Below, in pieces: positions 8,770 through 23,934 of a DNA stretch of 23,934 bases. The notes beneath the pieces are model-generated. The model made no database searches. It saw nothing but the letters and a program-made list of their open reading frames with translations, and had not been told where the DNA came from. This stretch comes from a virus. Within the stretch, counting starts at the first letter, position 1. Every line of letters begins with the position of its first letter. A program made the position numbers and the translations under genes. The stretch lies in the IMG/VR virus record IMGVR_UViG_3300020421_000140, positions 1-23,934 of that record. One strand, 5' to 3'.

Positions 8770-10253
8770 TGGACAAAACAAGATATATTATTATTGAAAG
8801 AAAAGATGACGTACATCTAACGATAGAGGCTGATGAGGCCATTCGTAGAGATTTAGGAGAATTTTTTACCTTTGAGGTTCCTGGTTTTAAGTTTATGCCA
8901 CAATATAGAAGTAGAGTGTGGGACGGAAAGATTAGATTATTCTCATATCAAACAGGTAAAATATATGCAGGTTTATATCCTTATATTTTAAAGTGGTGTG
9001 AAGATAATCAGGTACACGTAGTTGATGGCTCAAAAATGCAAGACACCAAGGTTGACGAAGCGAAGGTTGACCAGTTTATTGAGGCATTAAAAATACCTTT
9101 TACGGTAAGAGATTATCAAAAAGAAGCCTTTATCTATGCAACACGTAAGAATAGAACATTGTTACTGTCGCCAACGGCGTCTGGTAAATCACTTATTGTA
9201 TATCTATTGGTAAGATTTAATCTGCTTAGATTGAAAGAAGAAAAAAAGAAAATTTTGATTATCGTACCTACAACATCATTGGTAGAACAATTGTTCAAAG
9301 ACTTTAAAGATTACGGTTGGTCGCCTGAAAGAAACGTACATAGAATATACCAAGGACATGAGAAAGATACAAACAAACAAGTAGTTATTTCTACATGGCA
9401 ATCTATCTATAATCTACCTAAAAACTGGTTTAAACAATATGGTATGATTGTTGGTGATGAGGCACACTTGTTCAAAGCAGTCTCACTAACTAAAATTATG
9501 AGTAATCTAAAAAAATGTCCATATAGAGTAGGTCTAACTGGTACACTTGATGGTAGTAAAACACATAAACTTGTATTAGAAGGATTGTTTGGTAGTGTAA
9601 ATAAGGTAGTATCTACAACGGAACTTATGGAGAAAGGAAAACTATCTGAGTTAAAGATATACTGTTTGGTCTTAAAACACGATAAAAATACCTCACACTA
9701 TATGAAAGATAAGACGTACCAAGAAGAAATGGATTTCTTGGTTGCCAATGAGAAAAGAAATGTTTATATAAGAAACTTATGTAAAGGTTTACAAGGCAAT
9801 TCTTTATGTTTGTTTCAATATGTAGAGAAACATGGTAAACAATTGTATGAAGATATAAAAGAAAAGGCAACAGATAAAAAAGTCTTTTACGTACATGGTG
9901 GAATTGATACAGAAGAAAGAGAACATATCAGACAGATTACAGAAAAATCTGATAATGCAATTATTATCGCAAGTTATGGTACTTTCTCTACTGGTATTAA
10001 TATCAGAAATTTACATAACATTGTATTTGCAAGTCCATCAAAATCCAGAATTAGAAATTTACAATCTATCGGTAGAGGCCTTAGATTAAAAGATAACAAT
10101 AGTCATGCGACATTATATGACATAGCTGATGACATGACCTATAACGAGAAAGAGAACTACACATTGGCCCATTTTAGAGAACGGATAAATATATACAACA
10201 GTGAAGATTTTGATTATGAAATACACAACGTAGGACTAAACAATGACAGCTAG
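8769..10253 (+). CDS. uvsW: RNA-DNA/DNA helicase UvsW
   Basis: T4 UvsW family SF2 helicase, 494 residues from the ATG at 8769, which overlaps the previous stop. UvsW unwinds R-loops and branched DNA, helping the switch from origin- to recombination-dependent replication. The N-terminal domain has FFTFEVPGFKFMPQYRSRVWDGKIRLF in overlapping parts (about 33-59), matching the T4 N-domain with its NWDGRIRL. Helicase motifs are Walker A SPTASGKS (134-141), Ia IIVPTTSLVEQ, DEAH box (230-233), III GLTGTL, the IIASYGTFSTGINI segment and VI QSIGRGLR. T4 UvsW shows the same TTAL, TGLS and ASYGVFSTGI blocks. It overlaps the next gene by 11 bases. Confidence 0.95.
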   Translation: MDKTRYIIIERKDDVHLTIEADEAIRRDLGEFFTFEVPGFKFMPQYRSRVWDGKIRLFSYQTGKIYAGLYPYILKWCEDNQVHVVDGSKMQDTKVDEAKVDQFIEALKIPFTVRDYQKEAFIYATRKNRTLLLSPTASGKSLIVYLLVRFNLLRLKEEKKKILIIVPTTSLVEQLFKDFKDYGWSPERNVHRIYQGHEKDTNKQVVISTWQSIYNLPKNWFKQYGMIVGDEAHLFKAVSLTKIMSNLKKCPYRVGLTGTLDGSKTHKLVLEGLFGSVNKVVSTTELMEKGKLSELKIYCLVLKHDKNTSHYMKDKTYQEEMDFLVANEKRNVYIRNLCKGLQGNSLCLFQYVEKHGKQLYEDIKEKATDKKVFYVHGGIDTEEREHIRQITEKSDNAIIIASYGTFSTGINIRNLHNIVFASPSKSRIRNLQSIGRGLRLKDNNSHATLYDIADDMTYNEKENYTLAHFRERINIYNSEDFDYEIHNVGLNNDS

Positions 10254-10813: not shown

Positions 10814-11359
10814 ATGATAAGTAAAAAGAAACCAGAACATTACGTCAATAACAAAGAGTTTTTGTTAGCAATGACGGAGTACAAAAGACTAGTAAACGAG
10901 TCTGTTAAAAACAATCAACCTAAACCACCAGTAACTAATTACATTGGTGAGTGTTTTCTTAAAATTGCCAACCACCTATCTTACAGACCTAACTTTATAA
11001 ACTATACGTTTAGAGACGATATGATTAGTGATGGTATAGAGAACTGCTTACAATACTTAGACAATTTCAATCCAGAGAAATCAAATAATCCATTTGCATA
11101 TTTCACACAAATTATATACTATGCATTTGTAAGACGAATTCAAAAAGAGAAGAAACAGGTAGTAATCAAACAGAAGATGATTGCTGATTCTAATTATGAT
11201 GATATGACATTACAACCAGGTGAAGACAGAGAGTTTAAGAATCAGTTTAGTGAATTTTTAAAAGCAAATCTTCCTAAAGAAAATGCTGAAGAAATAGAAC
11301 AACAGAAAAAGACAAATGAAAGACTAAAAACTTTACGTAAAGCCAAGAAGAAGAAATAA
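10814..11359 (+). CDS. 55: Late transcription sigma factor gp55
   Basis: T4 gp55 family, 181 residues (T4: 185). It directs host RNA polymerase to the TATAAATA late promoters seen in this window. Matches to T4 gp55 run through the N-terminal two thirds: YVNNKEFLLAMTEYK (T4 YVNNKELLQAIIDWK), then RPNFINYTFRDDMISDGIENC and LDNFNPEKSNNPFAYFTQI and FVRRIQKEKKQV. T4 gp55 ends in an acidic region with SLDFLYE, which binds the sliding clamp gp45; here the end is instead Lys-rich (LRKAKKKK) and no such motif is visible. It is transcribed from its own sigma-70-like promoter, consistent with earlier expression than its targets. The next gene starts two bases after the stop. Confidence 0.92.
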   Translation: MISKKKPEHYVNNKEFLLAMTEYKRLVNESVKNNQPKPPVTNYIGECFLKIANHLSYRPNFINYTFRDDMISDGIENCLQYLDNFNPEKSNNPFAYFTQIIYYAFVRRIQKEKKQVVIKQKMIADSNYDDMTLQPGEDREFKNQFSEFLKANLPKENAEEIEQQKKTNERLKTLRKAKKKK

Positions 11360-21401: not shown

Positions 21402-22587
21402 ACAACAACAATTCGTAGATTATGCCGTTGAGAAATTTGGTTCAAATGAACTAACTGTTGCTCAACTTAAAGAAGCCAATAAAAAGTTTGGTTGCAAATA
21501 TGCACCACAATGGCTTATCAAAAACACAGACTTTAAAATAGGCAAAGGCCTATTTCAGTTACCAACTGAAACAGATGGTTCTTCTGCTAAGACTTCCGGT
21601 ACTGCCGAGAAAGTTTTGCCACAAGAAACAATCAATACAGAAGCTGCTTACGTAGTTTCATCTTTAACAGGTAATATTGTTCCTGCTAAGGATCCAAGTT
21701 TCGTTTCTTTCGGTAACTATCCAGATTTAAAATCAATTGTTAGGTCTAATATGTTCTATCCTGTTTTCATTACTGGTTTGTCTGGTAATGGTAAAACATT
21801 TGGTGTAACTCAAGCATGTGCTGAAGTTAAAAAAGAAATGATTAGAGTTAACATTACTATTGAAACAGATGAAGATGACCTTTTAGGTGGTTACAGACTT
21901 AAAGATGGTCAAACTGTTTGGCAAAATGGTCCTGTTATTGAGGCGATGGAGAGAGGCGCATTATTGCTTCTTGACGAAATTGACCTTGCCTCTAACAAGA
22001 TTATGTGTTTACAACCGATACTTGAAGGTTCAGGTGTCTATGTTAAAAAGATTAACAAGTTTGTAAAACCTAAAAATGGTTTCAACGTGGTCGCTACTGC
22101 CAATACTAAAGGTCAAGGTAGTGATGACGGTAAGTTTATCGGTACTAATGTTCTTAATGAGGCGTTCCTTGAAAGGTTCCCTATTACATTTGAACAGAAG
22201 TATCCAACTGCTAACGTTGAGCAAAAAATCTTAATCAACAGCCTTAAAAGTGCTGGTAAAAAAGATGATGACTTTGCTAAAAAGTTAGTAACATGGGCTG
22301 ACGTAATCAGAAAAACATATTTTGATGGTGGCGTTGATGAGATAATCTCAACTAGAAGATTAGTCCATATCGTTCAAGCATTTGGTATCTTCAATAACAA
22401 AATGAAAGCTATTGAAGTTTGTACTAATAGATTTGATGATGATACAAAGAATTCATTTAGTGAGTTATATCAGAAAGTTGACGCTGGCGCTACTGCTGAG
22501 CAGATAAGCGAAGAAGCGAGACAGGCAGATATGAAGTCTCAAATGGATGACAATGATAGTGAGTCAGATGACGAAGACGTTATCTAA
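21388..22587 (+). CDS. cobS: CobS/MoxR-like AAA+ ATPase
   Basis: 399 residues from the ATG at 21388, chosen for the AAGGA seven bases upstream; an ATG at 21367 would add seven residues. The N-terminal 90 residues form a helical domain (LNTKQQQFVDYAVEKFG, CKYAPQWLIKN) typical of phage CobS proteins. The AAA+ core has Walker A GLSGNGKT (130-137), Walker B LLLLDEID (192-199), sensor ATANT (236-240) and LNEAFLERFP with the arginine finger region (near 262). The VNITIETDEDDLLGGY loop is typical of MoxR/CobS proteins. The C-terminus is very acidic (DDNDSESDDEDVI). It is the natural partner of the upstream VWA protein. The name cobS follows marine phage usage; a role in cobalamin synthesis is unproven. 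Confidence 0.85.
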   Translation: MLNTKQQQFVDYAVEKFGSNELTVAQLKEANKKFGCKYAPQWLIKNTDFKIGKGLFQLPTETDGSSAKTSGTAEKVLPQETINTEAAYVVSSLTGNIVPAKDPSFVSFGNYPDLKSIVRSNMFYPVFITGLSGNGKTFGVTQACAEVKKEMIRVNITIETDEDDLLGGYRLKDGQTVWQNGPVIEAMERGALLLLDEIDLASNKIMCLQPILEGSGVYVKKINKFVKPKNGFNVVATANTKGQGSDDGKFIGTNVLNEAFLERFPITFEQKYPTANVEQKILINSLKSAGKKDDDFAKKLVTWADVIRKTYFDGGVDEIISTRRLVHIVQAFGIFNNKMKAIEVCTNRFDDDTKNSFSELYQKVDAGATAEQISEEARQADMKSQMDDNDSESDDEDVI

Positions 22588-22600
22588 ATCTATCAATAGT

Positions 22601-22647
22601 GTAAGTCCTTGTGGGGTCGGGGTAGTGTCCGACCCCCATTTACTTAC
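22601..22647 (+). promoter_or_regulatory. Nested hairpin in the bS21 leader
   Basis: Outer pair GTAAG (22601-22605) / CTTAC (22643-22647) encloses GGGGTCGG (22613-22620), an eight-base loop, and CCGACCCC (22629-22636). The inner stem is perfect and G+C-rich in an otherwise AT-rich genome. No T-run follows, so it is not a normal terminator. It ends four bases before the bS21 Shine-Dalgarno, and could be an mRNA processing or autoregulatory site. Confidence 0.65.
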
Positions 22648-22662
22648 GGAAAGGAGACAACT

Positions 22663-22866
22663 TTGTCAATAACTGTAGAAGTAAGAAATGGTAATTTAGA
22701 AAAGGCCATGCGTGTATTGAAGAAAAAGGTTATGCGAGAAGGAATTGTAAAAGAATTACGTGACCGACAGCATTATAAAAAACCCTCTGAAATTAAACGT
22801 GAGAAGAAAAAAGAAGGCATTAAGAATTACAAGAAGAAGATGAAGAAATTACAACAAGAATTATAG
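22663..22866 (+). CDS. rpsU: Ribosomal protein bS21
   Basis: 67 residues, starting at TTG (22663), with AAGGAG (22651-22656) six bases upstream; an in-frame ATG at 22609 would begin inside the leader hairpin and add an unrelated N-terminus. Family pattern: SITVEVRNGNLEKAMRVLKK, then MREGIVKELRDRQHYKKPSE and IKREKKKEGIKNYKKKMKK, highly basic and helical like E. coli S21. bS21 sits near the anti-Shine-Dalgarno region of the 30S subunit and is needed for initiation on natural mRNAs. Phage-coded bS21 is known to be common in pelagiphages and is thought to replace the host copy to favour phage mRNAs. It follows the AAA+ gene and precedes the structured RNA. Confidence 0.9.
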   Translation: MSITVEVRNGNLEKAMRVLKKKVMREGIVKELRDRQHYKKPSEIKREKKKEGIKNYKKKMKKLQQEL

Positions 22867-22889
22867 TATTCCCGCCTGTGCATTTATAT

Positions 22890-22897
22890 TATAAATA
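22890..22897 (+). promoter_or_regulatory. T4-type late promoter for the noncoding RNA
   Basis: Exact TATAAATA octamer 23 bases after bS21. With T4 spacing the transcript would begin near 22903, directly at the first stem of the putative RNA and more than 430 bases from the next gene. Confidence 0.75.
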
Positions 22898-22902
22898 TGG
22901 TG

Positions 22903-23245
22903 AGTAGGCAGCTCGTAAGACCTACGGCGTGGAGGGGTAGAACCTTGCCCGAGCTTGTAAAGCCAAAGATAGGTTGGAGTTTGGTCGTTCTCTATTACAA
23001 AAAACGACCACCTAATTCGGGCTCATTGGTCTTTGTAGCACTTTAATGTGACAAGGTTGGTAAGACAATTTAGTATAACGAGGGTGAGACCTACCTCGGC
23101 CCAAATGTATTCAGTAGAGCGAGAGTGAACCTGGATAGTGGTACGTTTTAGCGATAGCGCTTGGTTTCATCCACTTTAAATAGACAAACTTAAGCTGCGT
23201 GTTAATGTTTTGGTAGTTTTAAACACAAAAAAGAAAAACTACCAC
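22903..23245 (+). ncRNA. Putative structured noncoding RNA, about 340 nt
   Basis: This fills most of the only gene-free stretch above 300 bases (22867-23338); no credible reading frame is present on either strand. Stems, 5' to 3': GTAGG/CCTAC (22904-22908, 22921-22925) whose loop AGCTCG (22910-22915) can pair with CGAGCT (22950-22955) as a pseudoknot; AGGG/CCTT (22933-22936, 22943-22946); GCCCGA/TCGGGC (22947-22952, 23017-23022), which competes with the pseudoknot and encloses TAGGT/ACCTA (22970-22974, 23010-23014) and GGTCGTT/AACGACC (22983-22989, 23003-23009); CTTTGT/ACAAGG (23031-23036, 23051-23056); CGAGG/CCTCG (23079-23083, 23094-23098); TGAACC/GGTTTCA (23126-23131, 23163-23169) around AGCG/CGCT; AGTGG/CCACT (23137-23141, 23171-23175); and TGGTAGTTTT/AAAACTACCA (23211-23220, 23235-23244). 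It has no tmRNA, RNase P or 6S hallmarks. The ends are inferred. Confidence 0.6.
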
Positions 23246-23269
23246 TTGAAATATGAAGATAAGTGACTA

Positions 23270-23277
23270 TATAAATA
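23270..23277 (+). promoter_or_regulatory. T4-type late promoter for hsp20
   Basis: Exact TATAAATA octamer; the predicted start near 23283 lies at the first base of a hairpin, giving a 56-base leader to hsp20. Confidence 0.78.
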
Positions 23278-23282
23278 ACTAT

Positions 23283-23303
23283 GATACGCTCATTAGAGGT
23301 ATC
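23283..23303 (+). promoter_or_regulatory. 5'-terminal hairpin of the hsp20 mRNA
   Basis: GATAC, bulged G, CTC, loop ATTA, GAG, GTATC: eight pairs beginning at the predicted first transcribed base. It leaves the Shine-Dalgarno free, so it is more likely an end-stabilising stem than a thermosensor. Confidence 0.5.
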
Positions 23304-23338
23304 TTAATTAAACTTTGCTTAACAAAAGGAGGTTCTAT

Positions 23339-23791
23339 ATGACCAATCACAAAGCAATTCAATCAATTTTTACTGGATTAAGACCATTCACTGTCGGTTT
23401 TGATGAAATGTTTGACCATTTTGATACAATGGCACATCATCTACCACACATGACGGCGAATAACTATCCCCCATACAATATCGTAAAGACAGGTTCTTTA
23501 ACATATGATATTCAGGTGGCGTTAGCTGGGTACAGTAAAAAAGATGTATCAATCAACTATGAGGATAATGTCCTTAAAATTGAATCTGTAAAATCAAAAG
23601 AAGAAAAGGAAGTGGAAGACAATGACGGTGTATTACACAAAGGCATTGCAAAAAGAAACTTCACTAAATCTTTTACTATTGCAGAAGATGTTGAGGTTAA
23701 GGGTGCCGAATTAAAAGACGGACTATTAACTGTTTCTTTAGAGAAAATCGTTCCAGACCATAGAAAGGCGAGAACAATCAACATTAAATAA
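23339..23791 (+). CDS. hsp20: Small heat-shock protein Hsp20 (IbpA-like)
   Basis: 150 residues from the ATG at 23339, chosen for the perfect AAAGGAGG (23325-23332) upstream; an ATG at 23315 would lie before it. Alpha-crystallin domain from about 44 to 137: YPPYNIVKTGSLTYDIQVAL, AGYSKKDVSINYEDNVLKIE, then HKGIAKRNFTKSFTIAEDVE and GAELKDGLLTVSLEKIVPD, close to E. coli IbpA (GIAERNF, GANLVNGLL). It holds unfolding proteins for refolding. Hsp20 genes are a hallmark of marine T4-like phages, where the partner has been suspected to be capsid or host proteins. The C-terminal RKARTINIK carries the I-x-I motif used in oligomerisation. Late promoter, strong SD, and a terminator behind it indicate a monocistronic unit. 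Confidence 0.95.
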   Translation: MTNHKAIQSIFTGLRPFTVGFDEMFDHFDTMAHHLPHMTANNYPPYNIVKTGSLTYDIQVALAGYSKKDVSINYEDNVLKIESVKSKEEKEVEDNDGVLHKGIAKRNFTKSFTIAEDVEVKGAELKDGLLTVSLEKIVPDHRKARTINIK

Positions 23792-23862: not shown

Positions 23863-23934
23863 GCGGAAGTAGTATAAAAGTAACACACTTGGTTTCCAAC
23901 CAAGAGAAGATTGGGCAGTACAATCCTTCCGCTC
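23863..23934 (+). tRNA. tRNA-Gly (UCC), running into the window end
   Basis: Acceptor stem GCGGAAG / CTTCCGC (23863-23869, 23926-23932), then discriminator T and one C at the edge, probably the start of CCA. Anticodon arm CTTGG-TTTCCAA-CCAAG, anticodon TCC, reading GGA/GGG codons. The T stem GATTG/CAATC is perfect, but its loop GGCAGTA lacks the usual TTC, and the D loop AAAAGTA has only one of the two usual G. The D stem GTAT/ACAC has one mismatch. It may be a functional tRNA with an altered elbow or a decaying one. Confidence 0.75.

Follow-up and report, generated by a model that had tools for sequence, protein, structure and literature searches.

Covariation among marine phages points to a modular structured RNA between bS21 and hsp20

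The DNA analysed here, referred to as the window, is a stretch of 23,934 nucleotides from the IMG/VR virus record IMGVR_UViG_3300020421_000140. It is part of the genome of a T4-like myophage, in which Pfam recognises the gp20 portal and the gp23 capsid, and its nearest cultured relatives are the Pelagibacter phages Mosig EXVC030M and HTVC008M. The assignment to a pelagimyophage-type virus in a preliminary description of the window is supported. On the plus strand a bS21 gene with a TTG start occupies 22663–22866 (Pfam PF01165, E 2.4e-16) and an hsp20 gene starts at 23339; Pfam confirms both as neighbours of the spacer, the latter by its HSP20 domain. The 472 nt between the bS21 stop (22866) and the hsp20 start are the longest intergenic gap of the window. 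No ORF of at least 50 aa in the ORF list starts in this spacer, consistent with the earlier claim of some 450 bases free of a reading frame. The longest frame there has 49 aa and runs from an ATG at 22897 to 23046; a conserved small ORF was considered and rejected because the frames differ among relatives. The raised G+C content noted previously was also confirmed (0.47 in the spacer region vs 0.29–0.40 in its surroundings).

Several other features were observed around the spacer. Immediately upstream of the bS21 start, a strong hairpin formed by GGGGTCGG and CCGACCCC (22613–22636) is nested in a longer GTAAGT/ACTTAC stem (window 22600–22653) and could serve either to terminate the gene before it or to regulate bS21. 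A tRNA-Gly with anticodon TCC lies at 23863–23933, where it scores 43.9 bits with Rfam and was missed by ARAGORN; HTVC008M has a tRNA-Gly immediately upstream of its bS21 (locus L083, 1789–1862). Some relatives carry a glutamine riboswitch (RF01739) downstream of the S21–RNA–hsp20 block (L187, 2499–2547; L219, 3810–3863). Known riboswitches were previously sought in pelagimyophages and none was found (PMC7029224).

We found that the spacer matches no known RNA family. Rfam 15 cmscan of the window at gathering score returned only the tRNA at 23863–23933, and over 22500–23700 there was no match at E up to 5, including to GOLLD, ROOL, OLE, tmRNA, RNase P, 6S, group I introns and riboswitches. ARAGORN reported nothing over the bS21–hsp20 spacer, and neither program placed a tRNA over 22862–23262. 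ARAGORN predicted no tmRNA in the window, nor in any of 15 related loci, among them the Mosig locus L082, and Rfam found none in the window. These results agree with the preliminary description that tmRNA, RNase P, 6S and group I introns do not account for the sequence. We found no earlier report of an RNA from this spacer in the literature.

Folding did not bear out the claim of structure beyond chance. The plus strand folds with an energy of -99 kcal/mol where shuffled sequences average -97.5 (z -0.27), and 32 of 100 shuffles are no less stable than the native sequence; the minus strand gives z -1.18. Folding energy was therefore dropped as evidence of structure. The evidence comes instead from relatives, collected as 80 loci from a scan of viral contigs with hsp20 and 82 contigs from a pattern of the most conserved stretch. 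A MAFFT alignment of the region following bS21 revealed blocks of conserved structure between swapped segments. Compensatory changes exceed the controls: none of 500 shuffles reaches the observed covariation score and slid controls stay at or below 0.09, where the relatives were found partly via patterns that fix conserved bases, kinship of the sequences inflates the shuffle controls and the slid controls keep relatedness. The signal is strong in the modules called domain C and D2/B' and in the 5' hairpin. Covariation above both kinds of control thus indicates that the spacer encodes a genuine structured RNA on the plus strand, as had been proposed.

The same comparison bears on whether the stems are features of DNA. 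Insertions adjoin the element, and T4-like phages have intergenic origins and homing-endonuclease sites, so that palindromes of a replication origin or of a packaging or recombination site might mimic RNA stems. However, in the helices of D2, B' and other modules G-U cells outnumber A-C cells by 85:18, and this tolerance of G-U but not of A-C argues for a plus-strand RNA rather than a DNA palindrome. Crossing helices also covary, and the orientation is fixed relative to the genes. We regard a DNA-level element as extremely improbable.

The RNA proper extends from about 22903 to about 23245 (about 340 nt), and a helix, P1, adds 22870–22876 upstream. Of the element previously drawn at 22890–23338, the stretch from about 22903 to 23245 is retained as RNA, whereas 23246–23338 lies outside it and is the hsp20 leader. 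This leader has its own late promoter box, TATAAATA at 23270–23277, found by a scan for ATAAATA and followed by the gene with the Pfam HSP20 domain.

The modules described below all lie on the plus strand. P1 pairs TCCCGCC (22870–22876), upstream of the promoter box of the RNA, with GGCGTGGA (22926–22933), leaving one bulged T. In 33 of 47 relatives P1 forms as the sequence's own helix with a weighted length of at least 6, vs 21% when partners are swapped, and the helices are of many different sequences. Module A is the hairpin P2 at 22904–22925 (GTAGG, 22904–22908, with CCTAC, 22921–22925), which carries the conserved loop CNNYTCRTAAGW. Its first three variable pairs form in 47, 47 and 46 of 47 sequences (140/141), where shuffled means are 30, 26 and 21. 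The relatives support this stem, one of those named in the preliminary description, and likewise its AGTGG/CCACT stem. Module B (22976–23009) is an H-type pseudoknot whose first stem joins GGAG (22976–22979) to CTCT (22990–22993) and whose second joins GGTCGTT (22983–22989) to AACGACC (23003–23009). By eye, relatives form it with other sequences in both stems, such as GCAG..CTGC with TGGTGGT/ACCACCA.

The 3' part of the RNA contains three further modules. D1 (23109–23136) is an ATTCAG/CTGGAT hairpin with a GNNA-type tetraloop, and listing the relatives shows it covarying as ATTTGAG/CTCAAAT, GTCTGG/CCAGAT and GTTGAGT/ACTCAAT. In a different phage group (loci L204 and L215), a D1-like hairpin, AGTGGAAGCGAGAGTGGAAGCTGG, stands immediately upstream of domain C. 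D2 (23137–23190) consists of an outer helix (23137–23141/23171–23175), an inner hairpin (23150–23152/23159–23161) and a pseudoknot between GGTTT (23163–23167) and AAACT (23186–23190). B' (23199–23244) is a second H-type pseudoknot with GTGTT (23199–23203) pairing AACAC (23222–23226) in its first stem and 23211–23220 pairing 23235–23244 in its second. The second stem of B' is 99.7% paired and both sides change in 4 of 8 pairs; its first stem, by eye, becomes GAGTT/AACTC and GGCT/AGCC in relatives. Counted together, D2 and the 3' pseudoknot B' pair in 97.6% of cells and show 71 two-sided changes vs 22 in shuffled alignments, with a covariation score of 0.293 vs 0.130 shuffled and slid controls at or below 0.071. 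B and B' share one design, the formal count having been made on B' only.

Between B and D1 lies domain C (23019–23102), a junction supported by covariation in alignments of 47 and 58 sequences. Its helices are P1c (23019–23022/23099–23102), P2c (23039–23041/23048–23050), P3c (23055–23059/23066–23070, with a GTAAGA loop) and P4c (23079–23083/23094–23098), and a pseudoknot joins GGTCT (23028–23032) to AGACC (23087–23091) in the P4 loop. Mutual information computed over the 47 sequences with no assumed structure recovered four helices together with the pair 19–103, linking J1/2 to the P4 loop. When the structure was named, 95.7% of cells pair in the 47 sequences vs 77.9% in shuffled ones, with 164 two-sided changes vs 51 and a covariation score of 0.455 vs 0.142, which none of 500 shuffles reached; slid controls stay at or below 0.074. 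The GGYCT/AGRCC pseudoknot is 100% paired, with U-A in 36 sequences and C-G in 11 and never a mixture; part of its constancy reflects the search pattern, which fixed some of its bases but left Y and R free independently of each other. In the 58-member alignment the score is 0.585 vs 0.162 shuffled, a value biased upwards because that alignment was fitted to the model. Domain C has an invariant nucleotide core, and this one core occurs with two peripheral types, long (P2 and a GUAAGA loop) and short (about 82 nt). Its size is tRNA-like and it has a loop-to-junction pseudoknot, a likeness in outline only.

These data indicate that the supported pseudoknots are other than the two in the preliminary description. 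The proposed crossing of 22910–22915 with 22950–22955 requires CGAGC, which is present in the nearest relatives only. The TGAACC/GGTTTCA crossing conflicts with the pairing of GGTTT with AAACT at 23186–23190 in 44 of 44 sequences and with the location of TGAAC inside the separate hairpin D1. A two-fold switch suggested around 22947–22955 found no support.

We next consider expression. The box TATAAATA at 22890–22897 resembles a T4-type late promoter, from which a start would be expected near 22902–22903. All 7 ATAAATA occurrences in the window are on the plus (gene) strand and 6 of the 7 are intergenic, the exception being at 10185, which suggests that TATAAATA behaves as a late promoter. ATAWATA is invariant across 40 aligned relatives. 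Ahead of module A, 27 of 49 relatives have TATAAATA or NATAAATA; another 20 of the 49 have TATATATA in place of NATAAATA, which counts against this reading. The late promoter that had been proposed here is thus credible from its sequence, distribution and conservation.

This promoter poses a problem at the 5' end. The 5' strand of P1 lies upstream of the box, so a transcript from 22903 would be without P1. This suggests that RNA reading through from bS21 is also functional, or that the RNA switches between two 5' forms, and a read-through form probably exists besides the predicted late transcript. Covarying P1 draws on sequence that precedes the proposed start, so that forms other than the late transcript may exist or may be the working ones. 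Some relatives are without P1 and have a longer P2 directly after TATAAATA. At the other end, no terminator was found downstream of B', so the RNA may be cut from a longer transcript or may not be a free molecule.

To follow domain C across genomes we used a covariance model, R1, built from domain C only. R1 finds one copy each in the phages Mosig, Aegir and Kolga (E 1e-14 to 1e-18), and of the 46 loci picked up by a relaxed pattern it confirms 45. The relaxed pattern occurs in at least 120 viral contigs, including those of unrelated siphophages. Among 84,980 bacterial and archaeal genomes the domain C pattern has no match and the relaxed pattern has 2, of which 1 is confirmed by the model. 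That sole confirmed match (L177, 705–786) comes from a Red Sea Rhodobacteraceae MAG, where it sits on a contig of 3.95 kb that is possibly from a phage; a Corynebacterium pattern match (L176) has no model match and was rejected as chance. This suggests that domain C is virtually restricted to viruses.

The composition of the spacer varies widely. By rough motif rules, A, C and D occur singly or together, in many combinations, in nearly all of 94 distinct S21–hsp20 intervals. HTVC008M has none of the three by these rules; by eye it retains NATAAATA and one B pseudoknot, as well as two related hairpins whose loops are CTCGTAAAT. The Melnitz phage, which has bS21, shows no spacer after it and no domain C. 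HTVC103P matches only beside hsp20 and is without domain C, and phage 023Pt_psg01, a blastn match (H8), was rejected as it has no domain C. In Mosig EXVC030M the "hypothetical proteins" Mosig_00015 and Mosig_00014 are annotated over the RNA (L082, 2558–2806) and are probably spurious genes. Comparison of the intervals thus indicates a mosaic RNA whose portable modules fold independently and are exchanged, lost and recombined between phages, which is the main point that the preliminary description missed.

The element is tied to bS21 in the pelagimyophage-type group, and elsewhere domain C is also found without a nearby bS21. The siphophages Aegir and Kolga carry domain C alone, one gene after bS21 and before a terminase-side gene. 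It also stands alone after ssb (L157) and beside several unrelated genes, and in L097, L114, L129 and similar loci bS21 is 450–760 nt upstream of it. Downstream of domain C in L157 there is another possibly structured stretch (10924–10996), cut by the locus end. Runs of CAAGC-type repeats (AAGCTTCAAGCAGCAAGC) directly follow domain C in G+C-richer phages (L185, L186, L196, L198, L214, L217).

We asked whether these positions fit a cis-regulatory element, either an hsp20 leader of riboswitch type with domain C as its aptamer or a structured 3' UTR of the bS21 mRNA. The element always shares the strand of bS21 and hsp20 and in most cases lies between them, domain C is a compact junction with an aptamer-like invariant core, P1 forms only in a transcript arriving from bS21, and related phages do use glutamine riboswitches (PMC9004378). 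However, hsp20 has its own late promoter (23270) downstream of the element. The element stays with bS21 despite about 1 kb inserted between the RNA and hsp20 in Mosig, L006, L009, L014 and L022, and stays with hsp20 where an extra ORF follows bS21 (L203). Domain C lies before and after many unrelated genes, unlike a riboswitch of one pathway, so there is no constant leader position. Insertions on either side and the unrelated neighbours of domain C suggest that the RNA probably does not serve an adjacent gene as its leader or tail, and we consider this explanation unlikely.

Modularity itself could have other causes. The pseudoknots and junctions might block exonucleases in late transcripts, a role in stability or processing like that of viral exonuclease-resistant RNAs. 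H-type pseudoknots flank the element, the number and order of modules vary as would those of interchangeable roadblocks, and domain C often directly follows a stop codon. However, the invariant core of domain C exceeds what a roadblock needs, and most transcripts are without domain C, given the single copy in each of Mosig, Aegir and Kolga; we find this distinctly improbable. A nucleic-acid decoy against host defence or nucleases, with module shuffling as the trace of an arms race, would suit the rapid module turnover, including the two peripheral types on the same core, and the restriction to viruses. The element has no linked defence system or target, however, and the domain C core is very constant where an arms race predicts change. 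We hold a decoy to be very improbable.

Taken together, the lack of a family match and the covarying modules indicate a new family of structured RNA, which belongs broadly with the large orphan RNAs of phages and is unusually modular. Like GOLLD and ROOL, the spacer RNA is phage-encoded and large, with many pseudoknots, no open frame and a tRNA nearby; unlike them it has no Rfam match and about half the length, and its modules are reshuffled between close relatives. Like OLE it is a large structured RNA linked to bS21, directly following the phage bS21 gene; unlike OLE it is without an Rfam match and not in Bacillota, and its domain C also occurs without a nearby bS21. An OLE-like bS21-binding motif was sought and rejected: the SD:anti-SD mimic is absent, there being no CCUCC in the RNA and a single GGAGG, at 22931, which belongs to the freely varying sequence of P1. 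T4 rnaC and rnaD (species 1 and 2), two stable RNAs six nt apart beside tRNA genes, are likewise structured orphan RNAs of a T4-like phage; rnaC, however, ends in a tRNA-like T arm that the spacer RNA does not have, and R1, which covers domain C only, scores at best 7 bits on the pair, no match. The Mosig and Melnitz phages have a two-piece tmRNA (PMC9004378), also a structured RNA of related marine T4-like phages, but no tmRNA was predicted in the window (ARAGORN, Rfam) or in the Mosig locus L082 (ARAGORN).

Domain C is physically linked to one known family in other phages. In eight marine phage contigs (L087, L149, L155, L184, L186, L190, L214 and L216, with L184 and L216 below the family cut-off) it lies 7–10 nt from a Flavobacterium-1 RNA (RF02976), on the same strand and before or after it. 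Flavobacterium-1 is absent from the window and differs from domain C in fold and sequence. The family reportedly has its probable source in Weinberg's work of 2017.

Our data lead us to favour, as moderately probable, the reading that the spacer yields a multi-domain phage ncRNA of about 340 nt which is expressed late and acts in trans. The late promoter box at 22890 would drive the RNA while structural genes are expressed, and its ends may be protected by the 5' hairpin together with H-type pseudoknots whose loops are A-rich. Domain C would be the working part, since no other module combines an invariant core with occurrence in unrelated phages, and may bind one conserved host or phage partner common to many hosts. 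By analogy, the first candidate partner would be the ribosome or the phage bS21, given the position of the RNA, the binding of bS21 by OLE RNA (PMC12054373) and the behaviour of GOLLD, which rises at lysis and is pulled down with ribosomes (PMC12286853). Against this partner stand the missing OLE motif, the frequent occurrence of domain C without a nearby bS21 and the presence of bS21 without the RNA in Melnitz. A broader scheme, possible though doubtful, is that marine phages share a kit of portable RNA modules (C, the A hairpin, the B pseudoknots, D, Flavobacterium-1 and others) that are recombined like protein domains into composite ncRNAs, and that in pelagimyophages the composite acts on the host ribosome late in infection, together with the bS21 that the phage itself encodes.

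Few known viruses are as abundant as the pelagiphages (PMC10504331), and a conserved, covarying ncRNA in most of their S21–hsp20 intervals had gone unannotated. As a family, domain C is compact and can be searched for with model R1 (58 aligned members), and cellular genomes almost entirely lack it. The swapping of modules represents RNA evolution via domain shuffling and links the orphan Rfam family Flavobacterium-1 to phages. If the RNA acts in trans, host takeover in the SAR11 system would gain a new layer, which the cultured pair of Mosig and HTCC1062 allows to be tested.
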